From NCBI RefSeq assembly GCF_000313565.1, contig NZ_HE578926.1, positions 312,814 through 376,813 on the forward strand: 64,000 nt of DNA, given 5' to 3'. Shown here piece after piece: positions 53,259 through 62,540 of the stretch. The position numbers and the translations under genes were made by a program. This DNA is from Dielma fastidiosa (lineage in GTDB: Bacteria; Bacillota_I; Bacilli_A; Erysipelotrichales; Erysipelotrichaceae). The first letter of the stretch is position 1. Each line of letters starts with the position of its first letter. The notes below the pieces were generated by a model. That model did not search any database, had not been told where the DNA came from, and saw nothing but the letters and a program-made list of their open reading frames with translations.

Positions 53259-55109
53259 CTACTTTTCATTAGCCTTTGGATCAAGGGCAGCACGCAAGCC
53301 ATCACCTATCAGGTTGATAGAGAAAGCAGCGATAAAGATACAAAGAGCCGGTAAGATCCACTGCCACCAGTAGAGCTCGATAACCGTCATCTTCTGTGCA
53401 TTCGTCAGCATATTACCCCAAGAAGGCATAGGCGGCTGAACACCGAATCCCAAGAAGGACAATGCAGATTCAGTCAGCATATTAGAAGCATAGCTCAATG
53501 TAATATTAACAATACAAATATTTAAAACGTTTGGCAGGATGTGACGTACCATGATGCCGGCTTCTTTAATACCAAGAGCACGGGCAGCCAGTACGAAATC
53601 TTTTTCACGTTCAATCAGGATCTGACCACGAATCAAACGTGCCAGGCCCGGCCATGAAATACATCCAAGAATAAACATAATCAAATACATTTTCTGATCA
53701 CTGGTCATATCCGTAGATAAGAATGCAGATAATGTGATAACCAATGGCATAAATGGAATTGAAGAAATAATTTCTGTCAGACGCATCATCAGGTTATCAA
53801 CCCAGCCGCCTTTAAAACCAGAAACCATGCCGACGATGATACCGATAACACCCTGAATCAAGCAGGCGATGAAACCTACGATTAAGGTTACCTTACCGCC
53901 GTGGATTAAACGCGTCAGCAAGTCACGGCCCTGTTCATCGGTACCTAACGTATAACCGTCATTACCCCATGTCGCTACTTTGCCATTTTCCTGCAACGCA
54001 TATACCTGGAAGTAATCGCCATAGATCGCTGTCGCTTTTAAATTTGACGGAACATTCTGTTCACCCAAATCGTTTGTACCCCAAGTATAAACCGTACCGC
54101 TTTCGCCGAGTGCGTAGAAGCTGTTCTTACCGCTTTGAATTTCTACAATCTTTTCATCAATTTCAGGCATTTCCAGACAATGCTTATCACGGGAACCCCA
54201 AACATGCAGTTTACCCTGATCATCTAATACCAGACCATTACGGAATGAAATAGCGATTTGCGTTGCCTTTACTGAACCATCTTTTAATTCTTCCGGCACT
54301 GCGGAGAAGTCATTACCCGCAACACCTAATGTACCTACTGTACCATCATCAAGAAGCAGCAGCATGTTATAGCTTGAACCCTTCATATCGACAATACGGC
54401 CTTGGTACTCTTCCGGGATGATATCCAATTTACTGGATAAGACACTGCCCCAGATATACAAATTTCCCTTTTTGGTCAAGACAGCAGAATATTGTTCACC
54501 AGCAAAAATATCCTGAATCTTTTCCATTTCAAATAAACCCTTCATTTCAACAGGCACTTCGCCCTGATTGAAGTTGTTGTAACCCCAGGCATAAAGCTTT
54601 CCAGTATCTGACAGTGCCAGTACATGCTTATCACCAATCGAAATTTTCTCAATTTTACGTGATTTTACATCATCAGGGATATTCAGGCTTCCTTCCTGAT
54701 CAATACCCCATCCGTATAAATTACCTTCGTTAGACAAACCAATTGAGAAAGTGATACCGGAACGAATATCCTTAACCCCTTCCTTGACAAGCTGATCACT
54801 TACGCTCAAATAACCCTTACCAGGCTGAACGTTCTTAATGACCGCCTCAGTATTTAAAGCATCCATCGGGAACATAATTGATCCGATGAAAGAGAAACAC
54901 AGGATTGCAACAAATCCAATCAATCCAATACGTGCTAATTTATCATTAATAAAATTCTTCCAAACAACTTTAGTTGGCGAAGTAATCGCTTCTTCCTCCA
55001 ACACGCTTAACCCATTCATGCTTTTTCTTGCTTTAGGTGAGAATAAACCAGCAAACATTGACGTGAAAGAGCTCAGCATTCTTGAAAATATATTTTTCTT
55101 TTTATCCAT
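53259..55109 (-). CDS. oppC: OppC permease with seven-bladed RCC1 propeller insertion
   Basis: A 616-residue protein, about twice normal OppC. TM1 at about 59-80. Residues about 112-384 hold seven RCC1-like repeats, each ending in a WG-type motif: YGWG (132), YAWG (173), YIWG (218), GTLG (259), HVWG (302), YTWG (341) and ATWG (379). The canonical OppC sequence resumes with LGTDEQGRDLLTRL (388) and the permease helices, with the EAA loop (ARALGIKEAGIMVRHILPN). The propeller lies in the first extracytoplasmic loop, where the peptide-binding lipoprotein docks. No RCC1-OppC role is known to me; receptor or peptide capture is inference. Confidence 0.9.
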   Translation of the reverse strand: MDKKKNIFSRMLSSFTSMFAGLFSPKARKSMNGLSVLEEEAITSPTKVVWKNFINDKLARIGLIGFVAILCFSFIGSIMFPMDALNTEAVIKNVQPGKGYLSVSDQLVKEGVKDIRSGITFSIGLSNEGNLYGWGIDQEGSLNIPDDVKSRKIEKISIGDKHVLALSDTGKLYAWGYNNFNQGEVPVEMKGLFEMEKIQDIFAGEQYSAVLTKKGNLYIWGSVLSSKLDIIPEEYQGRIVDMKGSSYNMLLLLDDGTVGTLGVAGNDFSAVPEELKDGSVKATQIAISFRNGLVLDDQGKLHVWGSRDKHCLEMPEIDEKIVEIQSGKNSFYALGESGTVYTWGTNDLGEQNVPSNLKATAIYGDYFQVYALQENGKVATWGNDGYTLGTDEQGRDLLTRLIHGGKVTLIVGFIACLIQGVIGIIVGMVSGFKGGWVDNLMMRLTEIISSIPFMPLVITLSAFLSTDMTSDQKMYLIMFILGCISWPGLARLIRGQILIEREKDFVLAARALGIKEAGIMVRHILPNVLNICIVNITLSYASNMLTESALSFLGFGVQPPMPSWGNMLTNAQKMTVIELYWWQWILPALCIFIAAFSINLIGDGLRAALDPKANEK

Positions 55110-58007: not shown

Positions 58008-58048
58008 TAAAGAATTCCCTCCTATCAACTTATATTGATAATGTAATC

Positions 58049-58077
58049 ATTATACATAACAACCCTTGATTTTACAA
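58049..58077 (-). promoter_or_regulatory. Promoter of opp operon
   Basis: Minus strand TTGTAA (58077-58072), 17-nt spacer, TATAAT (58054-58049), 41 nt before oppA. The rest of 58078-58243 is AT-rich without a gene or a clear terminator, so read-through from the radical SAM genes into opp is possible. Confidence 0.65.
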
Positions 58078-58243
58078 GCCTTATTCACATTTTTGTGACT
58101 TGTATAACATTATTTTCCTGTATTTCCATAATGTTTATCGCCTATTTTCACACGTTTTTACAATATTTGTTTTAATTTTCATAATTTTTCATGCTGCATT
58201 ACAATCTTTTTTTGACCGCTAATTAAAATTTGTAAAATCAACT

Positions 58244-59743
58244 TTATTCCTGCAGTCTTTCATAATCCCCATTGTCAATTAGATACTTAATAACTTCGAG
58301 CATTTCTTCCTTATTACAGGTTACTTTATCTATTGACCCATTTTTAGTATAGTTTTCAAACTTACATTTTCCCTTGCATATAATGTCAAAAGGACAGCCA
58401 TTACAAATTTTCTTTGTTTGTTCCTTAACTAAATTAACTTTATTATATACATCTGAATCCTTTAAGTTTGCAATTACAAATTCATTAGTCCCCATTGCCT
58501 CATTGCAGTGATAAATGTCTCCATTATTATTGATGACAATATTATCATAGTAATTACAAAAATCTGTTTGCATAAAGTTTGAAACATATACATCAAAAGA
58601 ATTACGTATTCGCCTTAAGAATTGATCAGCAATAGTTATCTTAAAGCTATATTCTTTTAGCTTTAACAGCGACTGCAATAAATCTATTAGTCTTATTTGC
58701 TTAAATTCACTGTTATCCTTGCAGCTTACTAAATGTAATTCCAGTTTAAAAAATTTAGTATAATTTTTTAATTTATTTTCTATTTCCTCACACAATTCTG
58801 ATAGATATGCAATATTATCATAATCTAAATTAACTCTGAGTTTTACATAAAACTCATTTTCAACCAACATCTTGACATTATTTATAATTAATTCGAAGCT
58901 GCCATTTCTAAATATTCTACGCTTATCATGGATTTTTTTAGGTCCATCTAACGTAATAGTAAAACAAGATATTTGATGTCTGTATTTGCTAAGTAATGAG
59001 AAATAATTATCGATTCCTAAGCCATTCGTTATAAATTCATACTCAACATTGTTTAAATGCAGTTTTAAGAAATCTTCAATAAATGCATAATTTTCTTCTA
59101 ACAATGGTTCTCCTCCATAGAAAACCAAAGTAATGAAATTTTGCTCACTTAATTTTTTTATATATTCAATAGTTTGATGTTTAATATCATTCGGCATAAT
59201 GTCAAACGTTTTATTATGTTCAAAGCAATAGATGCAATTCATATTACATCTAAATGAATTTATTAAATAAACACGTTTATTATATGTATTAACATTAATA
59301 TCCTTAACATTACTTTCTTGCATAGGTGTAATAATATCTCGTATTCTTAATTCAAATAAATCATTTTTATTCAATCTTGAGACACAACCATTCAGCAAAA
59401 TATTATATATTGAGGAAGTAAGTTGATAAATTTCACCTTGGGACAAATTTACAATATACTTATAGCCTTTATATTCCATCAAATAGCTATAATCATTTAA
59501 CTCATATTTTAAAAAGTGCCGTTCTGATATCAAATTCTTTTCTAGCAACAATTTCATTATAACATCATATTCGTTACTTATATGATATACTTCATTGTCT
59601 AAAAGTTTGCGTGATAACTCAATCATTTTACCAGTGAATTCATACAAATTGTTTTGCAGCTTTAAATATATTTTTTCCTCAGACAATCTATAAAATTTAA
59701 TACTATCATTTTCTGTATATGTTCTGCCAGCATATTCAATCAT
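58244..59743 (-). CDS. Radical SAM/SPASM peptide maturase 2
   Basis: A 499-residue enzyme. Long N-terminal region (about 1-155), probably a peptide-recognition domain. Radical SAM core with [4Fe-4S] cysteines CNMNCIYC (166, 170, 173) and YGGEP (209-213). C-terminal SPASM region with Cys 396, 413, 447, 450, 456, 460 and 476, expected to hold auxiliary clusters. Such enzymes crosslink or alter residues of small ribosomal peptides using S-adenosylmethionine. AGAAGG precedes the start, 12 nt after the first maturase. The gene is very AT-rich compared with opp. The exact modification cannot be deduced. Confidence 0.9.
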   Translation of the reverse strand: MIEYAGRTYTENDSIKFYRLSEEKIYLKLQNNLYEFTGKMIELSRKLLDNEVYHISNEYDVIMKLLLEKNLISERHFLKYELNDYSYLMEYKGYKYIVNLSQGEIYQLTSSIYNILLNGCVSRLNKNDLFELRIRDIITPMQESNVKDINVNTYNKRVYLINSFRCNMNCIYCFEHNKTFDIMPNDIKHQTIEYIKKLSEQNFITLVFYGGEPLLEENYAFIEDFLKLHLNNVEYEFITNGLGIDNYFSLLSKYRHQISCFTITLDGPKKIHDKRRIFRNGSFELIINNVKMLVENEFYVKLRVNLDYDNIAYLSELCEEIENKLKNYTKFFKLELHLVSCKDNSEFKQIRLIDLLQSLLKLKEYSFKITIADQFLRRIRNSFDVYVSNFMQTDFCNYYDNIVINNNGDIYHCNEAMGTNEFVIANLKDSDVYNKVNLVKEQTKKICNGCPFDIICKGKCKFENYTKNGSIDKVTCNKEEMLEVIKYLIDNGDYERLQE

Positions 59744-59755
59744 AATCGTACCTTC

Positions 59756-60976
59756 TTACAATTGAATATTATGCTCTAGCATTAAATATTTAGGATAGAA
59801 TTTTTCATAATATTCTTTACAGCATAACTTTCTACAAGGGCCTTCACCTAAACACAAAGGAAAAAATTTGCATTTATCATCAATATTGCAGGACATTTTT
59901 ATATTAACTTTATTCTTGATTATTTTCCCATTTTCAATACAGCCAATCGCTTGATCATATATAAATCCTATACATGGGTACAAGTTTAAATTTTCATCAA
60001 CACATAATGTTGAATCATTATAGGCAGCACACAATCCATATTCATGTAGATGAGATGTTTCAAAACCATTCTGCTTAGCAAACAACTCTAATTTATATAT
60101 GCATTCTTCAGCATCAATACTTACATCTCTACACTCCTTACATTTATTATCCATGATTGGGCAAAATGATATAAATTTTAAGACATTATTCAATCCATCA
60201 TTTTTAAGTTTAGACATGAAATTAATTACTTTTTCATAATCTTCTATGGTCACATTCACTCTCAATATAAATTTGTCAGAATATAAGAACGCATATTTCA
60301 ACAATGAATTATATATGTCATCAAATGTACCATTACCGTTTTTATAAGGTCTATTATAATTATGATTTTCTTTTGTTGCGTCTATTGTAATTTGTACATT
60401 ATCTACTTTTTTCAATATTTCATCTGCACCATCCATCAATGTACCATTCGATATTAAAGTTAAGCGCATTTTCAGATTTTCGTTTTTAATATCTCTTAAA
60501 TCATTTATGACATTTAAAACCATTGGCTTGTTAAGCATCGGTTCACCGCCATATAATACTACGTCAACATTTCTTGTTTCATCATTAATGATGTCATTGA
60601 CGATTGCTTCTTTTATTTTCTGCCAATTTTCTTCATTTAAAAATTTATTATTATCTATATTTTTACAAGCGTTTTCAATGCAATACCAACAATTCAAATT
60701 ACAAGCTGACGTAAACGAGATAACTATATTTACATTTTTATGAGAATGAATTGCATTATTCAATTCGCATTCTAGTTGATGTCTTTCATATTCATAACTC
60801 TCAGTTATAATCTTTTTATTTTTGAATAAATTTAATGTATCGACATCTAATTCATCAAAATTTTCATTTTTTAATATTTCATATATTGAAGATGGTATTT
60901 GTAATAAGCATTGTGAAAATGAATTAAACAACAACTGGTTATCAGCATAAAATATATTATAATTAGATGATTTCAT
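59756..60976 (-). CDS. Radical SAM/SPASM peptide maturase 1
   Basis: A 406-residue enzyme. N-terminal region (about 1-80) with PqqD/RRE flavour, radical SAM cysteines CNLNCWYC (92, 96, 99), YGGEP (142-146), and a C-terminal SPASM region with CxAAYN...CVDENLNLYPC and CNIDDKCKFFPLCLGEGPCR, then KLCC. Start at 60976: GGAGGA lies 4 nt upstream; an ATG four codons earlier contains this site. It lies 71 nt after the small peptide gene, separated by a hairpin, and is followed by a second maturase. It probably modifies the peptide. Confidence 0.9.
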   Translation of the reverse strand: MKSSNYNIFYADNQLLFNSFSQCLLQIPSSIYEILKNENFDELDVDTLNLFKNKKIITESYEYERHQLECELNNAIHSHKNVNIVISFTSACNLNCWYCIENACKNIDNNKFLNEENWQKIKEAIVNDIINDETRNVDVVLYGGEPMLNKPMVLNVINDLRDIKNENLKMRLTLISNGTLMDGADEILKKVDNVQITIDATKENHNYNRPYKNGNGTFDDIYNSLLKYAFLYSDKFILRVNVTIEDYEKVINFMSKLKNDGLNNVLKFISFCPIMDNKCKECRDVSIDAEECIYKLELFAKQNGFETSHLHEYGLCAAYNDSTLCVDENLNLYPCIGFIYDQAIGCIENGKIIKNKVNIKMSCNIDDKCKFFPLCLGEGPCRKLCCKEYYEKFYPKYLMLEHNIQL

Positions 60977-61006
60977 ATAATCCTCCATTTCAAATTTTTA
61001 TTACAA

Positions 61007-61049
61007 AATTATTATAGGCGTTGAATTTAATTCAGCGCCTATAATAATT
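61007..61049 (-). terminator. Hairpin between precursor and maturase genes (partial terminator)
   Basis: AATTATTATAGGCG (61007-61020) pairs perfectly with CGCCTATAATAATT (61036-61049), and the inner bases extend the stem to a very small loop. The right arm overlaps the precursor stop codon. On the minus strand the stem ends in AATTTTG, a weak U tract, so it may stop part of the transcripts or protect the precursor mRNA, giving more peptide than enzyme. Confidence 0.7.
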
Positions 61050-61143
61050 ATTTACAAACGTACTCATTATGAATTTGGCAACCCATAGATGCTTCTATAG
61101 CTGCAAACCCCTCAGCTAAAACTACTACTTTCTTTTCTTCCAT
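61048..61143 (-). CDS. Putative RiPP precursor peptide (31 aa)
   Basis: A 31-codon gene with GAAAGGAGAA before its ATG. The peptide begins MEEKKVVVLAEGF, continues AAIEASM and ends GCQIHNEYVCK. Charged start, hydrophobic middle, and a C-terminal segment bracketed by two cysteines (residues 22 and 30) look like leader plus core of a modified peptide. It has its own promoter, and two radical SAM/SPASM enzymes follow on the same strand. No family is recognised; no dedicated protease or exporter is adjacent. A sactipeptide/ranthipeptide-type or other crosslink to the cysteines, Tyr or His is plausible but unproven. Confidence 0.75.
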   Translation of the reverse strand: MEEKKVVVLAEGFAAIEASMGCQIHNEYVCK

Positions 61144-61170
61144 AAAATTGTTCTCCTTTCTTACACAAAT

Positions 61171-61200
61171 ATTGTAAGCCCTTACTTATGCTTATTTCAA
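61171..61200 (-). promoter_or_regulatory. Promoter of precursor peptide gene
   Basis: Minus strand TTGAAA (61200-61195), 18-nt spacer, TACAAT (61176-61171); transcription would start about 20 nt before the peptide gene. Confidence 0.65.
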
Positions 61201-61231
61201 CCCTTTTTTTAAATTATTTTTACCTAAAAAC

Positions 61232-61256
61232 AGAGCTAATTAACGCTAATTACTCT
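61232..61256. promoter_or_regulatory. Double TAATTA box upstream of the RiPP promoter
   Basis: AGAG-C-TAATTA-ACGC-TAATTA-CTCT: two TAATTA elements one helical turn apart within an inverted repeat, about 32 bp upstream of the -35. Possible regulator site. Otherwise 61201-61432 is AT-rich with no gene seen. Confidence 0.35.
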
Positions 61257-61432
61257 ATTGAAAAAAGCATAATTTCAGCACTATTTTTTCTACATTTTCA
61301 CCCTTGATTATTTGAATTTTCCATATATTGCATAATAAACCTCTTACTGACACTAACTGCAGCGCATATATCATTTTATTGATCAAGGATCAATTGTTTG
61401 TTTTATTATCATCTAACGTTAATTTTTGATTT

Positions 61433-61469
61433 AAAAAAGAACACTTTCAGCATTTTGCTGTCCGTGTTC
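61433..61469 (-). terminator. Terminator after Ntn hydrolase gene
   Basis: Minus strand GAACAC-gga-CAGCA-aaa-TGCTG-aaa-GTGTTC then six T. It separates the hydrolase from the RiPP genes. Confidence 0.85.
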
Positions 61470-61475
61470 CCTTCC

Positions 61476-62540
61476 TTATTTGTTCAAATTGTACGTATAC
61501 GGAGTATCATATTTCATCCCGATACTGATTGTAGCACTCAATTCACTCTGATTATAAATGATTGACCACTGTGTTCCTGTCATTTCATTGTCATCATTAA
61601 GATGCAGCGGCTGAGAAACAGCTTTAAGCAGATTCATGCCTTCAGCCTCACTCAAAATACCTTTATTCTCTGTCAGTGTCTTCTCCAAAGTTGCATAGCG
61701 ATCCTGCCCCTTGCCAAAGTCATAATCACCAGGTGTCAGCAGAAAGTTTGTGGCCGCCTGCCAATTGCCGTCCATTTCAACAACACTTATTTCATTATCA
61801 ACATATTCCACGACAACTGATTTACCATTGGCGTCAGCAATTTGGAAATGATAGCTGCTGTTTGCGGATGAATGCATGTCATATTGTTTTAACAAAGCAA
61901 CTGCTTCATCAACCGTGGCTGCCTTATCCAATACCATTCGCACCGCTGTCGTCGTAGTGATGTCAATTTTATCAGTTTGCTGATTTGTTGCCTCTGTTGG
62001 TATCAGCAATACACCGATGGCCAAGCCCTTTTCATTAATGCCATCAAGAGGTGCATAAGGAGCCGCCAACGTAATAATGCTTGACAATAAGCCATCCGGC
62101 AATTTTTCTTCATTATAGCCTAAAAAGCCTAAATTAACCGTTGAGAAAGAAGCATAGCCATTATCTGGCTGGGTTTTCACAAATAAAGCCGGTGAATATG
62201 TTAAATCAAAATTTCTGCCAAATATTTTCGCGCCATCCGGTGTGGCCGCGTTAAAGGTTGAGCAGCCAAGATTAGGAATGCTGAATTCTACTGGTATTCC
62301 CTTTAAAAGCTTTGTGGATACAAATTGAATCAGTTCAGCATCCGTACTGGCGCCGGTGGCCAGAAAATCATCAAAACCATAATCGCCTTTATATTCCATT
62401 GTATATAACGCGTAATCATCTACTTTTTTCATTGACTGAAGCGTTGCCAGTTCATTATGGAACATGGCATAGAAACCGCCCACTAGGACAACTGCTACAC
62501 ACGCGATACCAATGAGTAATCGTTTTACTATTTTGTTCAT
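61476..62540 (-). CDS. Membrane-anchored Ntn hydrolase, linear amide C-N hydrolase (choloylglycine hydrolase/C45-like)
   Basis: A 354-residue protein with an N-terminal signal anchor (about 7-27) and an extracytoplasmic Ntn-type domain. Candidate nucleophile Cys93 in NLGCSTFNA, followed by IFGRNFDL, and the N-terminal-half pattern typical of bile salt hydrolase/penicillin V acylase and acyl-CoA:6-APA acyltransferase-like proteins. In classic members the Cys becomes N-terminal after removal of preceding residues; here about 92 residues precede it, as in C45-type proenzymes. Substrate (N-acyl amide, bile acid conjugate or peptide) unknown. Promoter, operator-like repeats and terminator make it a single-gene unit. 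Confidence 0.75.
   Translation of the reverse strand: MNKIVKRLLIGIACVAVVLVGGFYAMFHNELATLQSMKKVDDYALYTMEYKGDYGFDDFLATGASTDAELIQFVSTKLLKGIPVEFSIPNLGCSTFNAATPDGAKIFGRNFDLTYSPALFVKTQPDNGYASFSTVNLGFLGYNEEKLPDGLLSSIITLAAPYAPLDGINEKGLAIGVLLIPTEATNQQTDKIDITTTTAVRMVLDKAATVDEAVALLKQYDMHSSANSSYHFQIADANGKSVVVEYVDNEISVVEMDGNWQAATNFLLTPGDYDFGKGQDRYATLEKTLTENKGILSEAEGMNLLKAVSQPLHLNDDNEMTGTQWSIIYNQSELSATISIGMKYDTPYTYNLNK

Follow-up and report, generated by a model that had tools for sequence, protein, structure and literature searches.

How two different radical SAM enzymes come to stand behind a single peptide of 31 residues, and whether both act on it, is the question raised by a short stretch of the Dielma fastidiosa genome, analysed here within a window of 64,000 nucleotides. 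The three ORFs named in a preliminary description of this DNA were confirmed at their positions, all on the minus strand: a precursor peptide gene (31 aa, 61048–61143), a radical SAM/SPASM enzyme of 410 codons that appears to be the cognate-type maturase (R410, 59756–60988; domain and family matches, tree and AF2 model) and, downstream of it after a gap of 12 bases, a second radical SAM/SPASM enzyme of 499 codons (R499, 58244–59743; domain and family matches, SPASM cysteines and AF2 model). The CxxxCxxC motifs previously described as intact are so in both enzymes (CNLNCWYC in R410, CNMNCIYC in R499), which also carry the GGEP motif and SPASM cysteines expected of radical SAM/SPASM maturases. 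The locus has the gene content of a RiPP system, with a precursor composed of leader and core beside modifying enzymes, and this earlier assignment is well supported by homologous loci.

The peptide (MEEKKVVVLAEGFAAIEASMGCQIHNEYVCK) consists of a leader (MEEKKVVVLAEG...) that includes the strand VVVLAEG and a core around C22QIHNEYVC30K, its cysteines being Cys22 and Cys30. It had been credited with a clear ribosome binding site and promoter. The former is evident (AAAGGAG); for the latter there is a candidate (TTGAAA-18-TACAAT, 10/12 consensus match), but promoter-like matches are not significantly commoner in the real sequence (37) than in shuffles (30.5 ± 5.9). The window contains 72 small ORFs with a ribosome binding site, so that the peptide ORF alone is not beyond chance, and the peptide matched no family model and, in a search against plasmids, no plasmid sequence. 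The number of such ORFs and the want of a family match would both be expected if the 31-codon ORF were fortuitous and the two enzymes modified a protein encoded elsewhere. Three features do exceed chance: the leader motif, the position of the gene and the hairpin after its stop codon. The motif [VI][VIL]x[EKDHR]G occurs in one of the 72 small ORFs, namely the reported peptide, and motif, position, spacing to the first Cys and hairpin all agree with what is seen in relatives, which makes a chance ORF highly improbable.

Short peptides bearing this motif and at least two Cys within 450 bases upstream of the enzyme gene precede 14 of 80 R410-like genes (drawn from a profile scan of named genomes, among the matches listed), compared with one of 2738 control stretches (Fisher 1e-21), a p-value that is partly circular, and more a description than a blind test, because the pattern was settled after the relatives had been viewed. 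An earlier form of the pattern, refined once the relatives were seen, had given weak enrichment (7/35 versus 13/639). The motif was fitted without the window peptide, although the likeness of this peptide had drawn attention to it. The peptides of the relatives carry VLEEG, VLDEG, VLAEG, VISEG and similar strings near the start, followed by CC or CxxC. The distance from peptide start to enzyme is 155 bases here and 74–286 in the relatives, and that from the motif glycine to the first Cys is 10 here, 10 in Alkaliphilus and 6–13 among the relatives. Among the matches listed, geopeptide-type systems of this sort occur in Geobacter and its relatives, Omnitrophota, Auribacterota, Spirochaetales, archaea and Bacillota. 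In Methanosaeta sp. PtaU1.Bin112 (L101:4660–14009), seven tandem geopeptide-type SPASM genes (429–469 aa) lie behind one motif peptide (MKMDVLDEGTKKSGKIKSSSSCSSCDERG...) and cluster in the tree as an old tandem expansion.

Independently of the motif, a hairpin directly after the peptide stop is common to the relatives (z −1.9 to −6.7 among those of R410). In Dielma it is a 26-bp inverted repeat right behind the peptide (61002–61054, minus strand) followed by UUUUG, a probable attenuator with a fold z of −5.66 that no shuffle equalled, and in G032, a genome of the same family, a 13-bp stem and T run lie between a VVDDG peptide (MCEFIEIVVDDGEMDYACTIRTQRA) and its enzyme. Leader motif and hairpin together offer a simple rule for finding further precursors missed by curated models. 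Transcription of the peptide probably begins separately from that of the gene before it, which encodes a C45/choloylglycine-hydrolase-type hydrolase whose N-terminal segment resembles a membrane anchor (61476–62540, minus strand): a terminator hairpin (61430–61478, minus strand; GGAACAC...GTGTTCTTTTTT; fold of 61340–61478, z −2.8) closes this upstream gene, and the peptide operon is thus probably its own transcription unit.

The entire operon and its flanking non-coding DNA form a low-GC island (58030–61450), immediately downstream of the hydrolase gene, with a GC content of ~26% in composition profiles compared with ~40–42% across most of the window. Third-position GC is likewise low (0.22–0.25 for the three operon genes versus 0.27–0.50 for the window's other genes), and on these two grounds the three-gene operon was most likely acquired horizontally from another bacterium. 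A repeat search for the terminal repeats of an inserted element returned just the hairpin and chance-like repeats. Island, upstream terminator and hairpin had all gone unremarked in the preliminary description. No orthologous locus with all three genes was found in the genomes searched, and close copies of R410 were absent from 84,980 genomes and viral contigs in a single-protein scan, from 395 genomes of the class and from 297 of the Alkaliphilus order; 146 taxonomic relatives contained no close copy of either R410 or R499.

The island holds nothing beyond the peptide, R410 and R499. As noted before, no protease or exporter gene lies within it, nor any lanthipeptide synthase or C39-peptidase ABC exporter; a single C39 match elsewhere in the genome is borderline (22.4 versus 22 bits). 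The downstream neighbours of the island, on the same strand, are oligopeptide-transporter genes at native GC. Also in the window is an OppC-like permease of 616 aa (53259–55109, minus strand) in which, on reading by eye, RCC1-like repeats (LYAWGYNNFNQ..., LYIWGS...) follow the first membrane segment, an unusual feature in a transporter permease. As the island has neither exporter nor immunity gene, its product could be taken for a small redox cofactor or signal, derived like PQQ or mycofactocin from a short precursor, and not for a secreted peptide; the lengths of PqqA and MftA are near that of the Dielma precursor. We regard this as very unlikely, as the island lacks PqqD-, MftB-, peptidase- or dehydrogenase-type partners, the core is Cys-based, and in Alkaliphilus, G030, G559 and G032 the related locus adjoins ABC transporters.

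R410 matches the Pfam Radical_SAM family, and its SPASM cysteines show an atypical Cx5Cx5Cx5C arrangement (C367, C373, C379 and C385) where Cx2Cx5Cx3C is usual. Its true start is probably the fifth codon (60976), because GGAGG falls within the first four codons and the relatives begin MKxSxYN. In the tree, R410 groups with the Alkaliphilus enzyme (L100) with a local support of 95, and its AF2 model (pLDDT 90) has the CteB structures 5why/5wgg as the nearest solved fold. R499 combines a Pfam Radical_SAM match and a score to the SPASM domain model with canonical Cx2Cx5Cx3C cysteines (C447, C450, C456 and C460), and the nearest solved fold to its model is again CteB, followed for both enzymes by the weaker structural matches anSME, TigE, ChlB and SuiB. 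Its first 79 residues form an N-terminal extension without a match and with low AF2 model confidence. Residues 80–150 do match the leader-binding domain; a tandem copy of that domain in residues 1–82 was considered and rejected (profile score of 0.8 bits, with up to 8.9 in shuffles).

Most motif-bearing relatives have one SPASM gene, and membership of this family therefore does not explain R499. In the tree R499 sits on a long branch, without specific kin among the second enzymes of other two-enzyme loci. A close kinship with those enzymes was looked for and not seen. Its strongest relative by score, in G006, has no geopeptide-type peptide in view, but in G032 a relative of R499 (33% identity over residues 153–478) starts 119 bases after the start of the VVDDG peptide. 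On sequence grounds, then, each enzyme seems to have a relative serving a geopeptide-type leader, that of Alkaliphilus for R410 and that of G032 for R499. The preliminary description had made the tie between peptide and enzymes depend on homologous loci not keeping the enzymes without a peptide of this kind; many distant SPASM relatives do stand beside other peptides or none that is visible, but such a peptide is present beside the closest relatives of both enzymes. The single-enzyme state of most motif-bearing relatives and the isolated branch of R499 could also mean that R410 matures the peptide and R499 is a passenger of the operon acting on another substrate. This we consider unlikely: no other leader-motif peptide exists in the window, the island is made up of these three genes only, and the G032 relative of R499 serves the same leader type.

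Both enzymes most likely act on the peptide, forming Cys cross-links. The reading that we favour, by a modest degree of confidence, is that of a horizontally acquired, self-contained geopeptide-type RiPP operon with an extra maturase, in which R410 and R499 would modify the peptide successively to give a small bicyclic peptide. Transcription would run from the peptide's own start, beyond the terminator of the upstream gene, and the hairpin behind the peptide would cause more peptide than enzyme to be made. At their N-terminus the SPASM enzymes have a small strand-plus-helix domain on which the leader strand VVVLAEG may dock, since the leader is conserved and related enzymes have RRE-like N-termini. 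With a 5′-deoxyadenosyl radical and the help of its auxiliary clusters, R410 would then link the sulfur of C22 or C30 to a residue nearby, and a second modification of this 10-residue core, in the simplest case the second Cys link, would fall to R499; we infer here the use of the peptide by both enzymes, the thioether chemistry and the order of the steps. Proteolysis and export would rely on host proteins encoded outside the island.

The best family matches of both enzymes are largely to Cys cross-linking systems (TIGR04280, CefB, PapB and Clo7bot), and their nearness to CteB and PapB suggests a Cys-to-carbon link of the sactipeptide or ranthipeptide type. The enzyme relatives are just 25–33% identical, so the reaction type is not readable from them. 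PapB accepts Cys-Xn-Asp with n = 0–6 (PMC9413430), and C22-x4-E27 is a possible candidate cross-link site in the Dielma core. A more specific proposal, which we put forward tentatively, is that two SPASM enzymes of separate lineages, each with relatives that stand as maturases beside a geopeptide-like precursor of their own, are joined on one 31-residue precursor and make two different radical modifications on the 10-residue Cys-x7-Cys core, yielding a bicyclic product of an undescribed kind.

The two successive modifications proposed in the preliminary description are plausible, but two adjacent SPASM genes need not imply them. In thuricin CD, TrnC and TrnD are ineffective singly and form a tight complex in which only the radical SAM activity of TrnC is strictly essential (PMC12093266). 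Following this precedent, R410 and R499 might depend on each other in a complex, one partner carrying out the radical chemistry while the other chiefly keeps hold of the leader, so that the peptide would receive one type of modification and not two in succession; the 12-base spacing of the two genes would suit such an arrangement, and the 79-residue extension of R499 could bind a partner. Yet no radical SAM cysteine is missing from either enzyme, many of the SPASM ones are kept as well, and the Alkaliphilus and G032 relatives have the peptide without the other enzyme adjoining, so each lineage can work alone. An obligate complex is a weaker contender, rather improbable though the most serious of the alternatives to successive modification by R410 and R499. 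The locus is a naturally occurring test case, and a very small one, of how two radical SAM enzymes share a short core, whether in turn or as a complex.

Among the known systems closest to the locus is the geopeptide system of Geobacter and relatives (TIGR04229/TIGR04280), in which a precursor of 27–40 aa with a VLxEG-type leader and a Cys core is followed by a hairpin and then a SPASM maturase. The Dielma peptide likewise has a VLxEG-type leader followed by a Cys core beside a SPASM gene. The earlier view that it belongs to no known precursor family therefore needs amending, as the VVVLAEG leader and the Cys core assign it to the geopeptide-type precursors, though it gave no match to TIGR04229 itself (cut-off 30 bits) at E values up to 10. 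TIGR04280 is among the top two family matches of both enzymes, but R410 (121 bits) and R499 (111 bits) fall far under its curated cut-off of 400 bits, which marks them as remote relatives without formal geopeptide membership. By comparison, the L109 peptide matches TIGR04229 above the cut-off (40.5 bits), as do the L153 and L159 enzymes for TIGR04280 (638 and 622 bits). By its sequence features, the locus appears to work like a geopeptide system yet is not classifiable as a member by curated tests. In the literature searched, no paper named geopeptides, TIGR04280 or TIGR04229.

The nearest relative of R410 among the matches listed, that of Alkaliphilus transvaalensis, also has a hairpin between peptide and enzyme, and its precursor (MKKELFMVLEEGHIEFSESNFCVFCNPVQITH) carries the motif and the first Cys at the same residues as the Dielma peptide (Cys22); it differs in having one SPASM enzyme, 28% identical to R410, followed by ABC transporter genes, and a CxxC core. 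What the Bacillota loci with two SPASM genes (G126, G101, G559 and Enterococcus casseliflavus L113) have in common with Dielma is a short peptide whose start is of the V-I-x-x-[G/A/V] type; no specific relationship links their enzymes to R410 or R499, and the Dielma pairing seems to have been assembled separately. Some of them contain extra genes. In G101, a genome of the same order (L186:6507–10966), the peptide (MKVIRNVSSEVASKKLEQAASEKFVANEMASSCLCRCSDG) is accompanied by a SPASM enzyme, two methyltransferase-looking proteins and a second SPASM enzyme; in G559 (L218:754–4669), two similar precursors (MKVIRSGIELSSKEEIVECPNFISGFCCKTVLCK and MKIIRNGIELDTVEKIIECPNYLGGFCCKTVLCK) lie between two related SPASM genes, with an ABC transporter after them; and in E. 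casseliflavus NBRC 100478 (L113:6804–11269), the peptide (MKVISEASKEQIITMCGSNQHSHHPPII...) is found with an ABC transporter and two adjacent SPASM genes. Thuricin CD resembles the Dielma operon in having two non-identical SPASM enzymes, but these act as one complex and there are two precursors (TrnA and TrnB) where Dielma has one. CteB, the SCIFF maturase with the nearest solved fold to both enzymes, and PapB, a ranthipeptide maturase whose family model scores 76–92 bits on R410 and R499, each work as one enzyme, on many-Cys SCIFF precursors or on PapA with its six Cx3D/E motifs. A second SPASM enzyme sets Dielma apart from the geopeptide system, whose cores are mostly CC where the Dielma core is C-x7-C. 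The locus represents a class of modified peptides that is known but uncharacterised, in a two-enzyme form not seen before.
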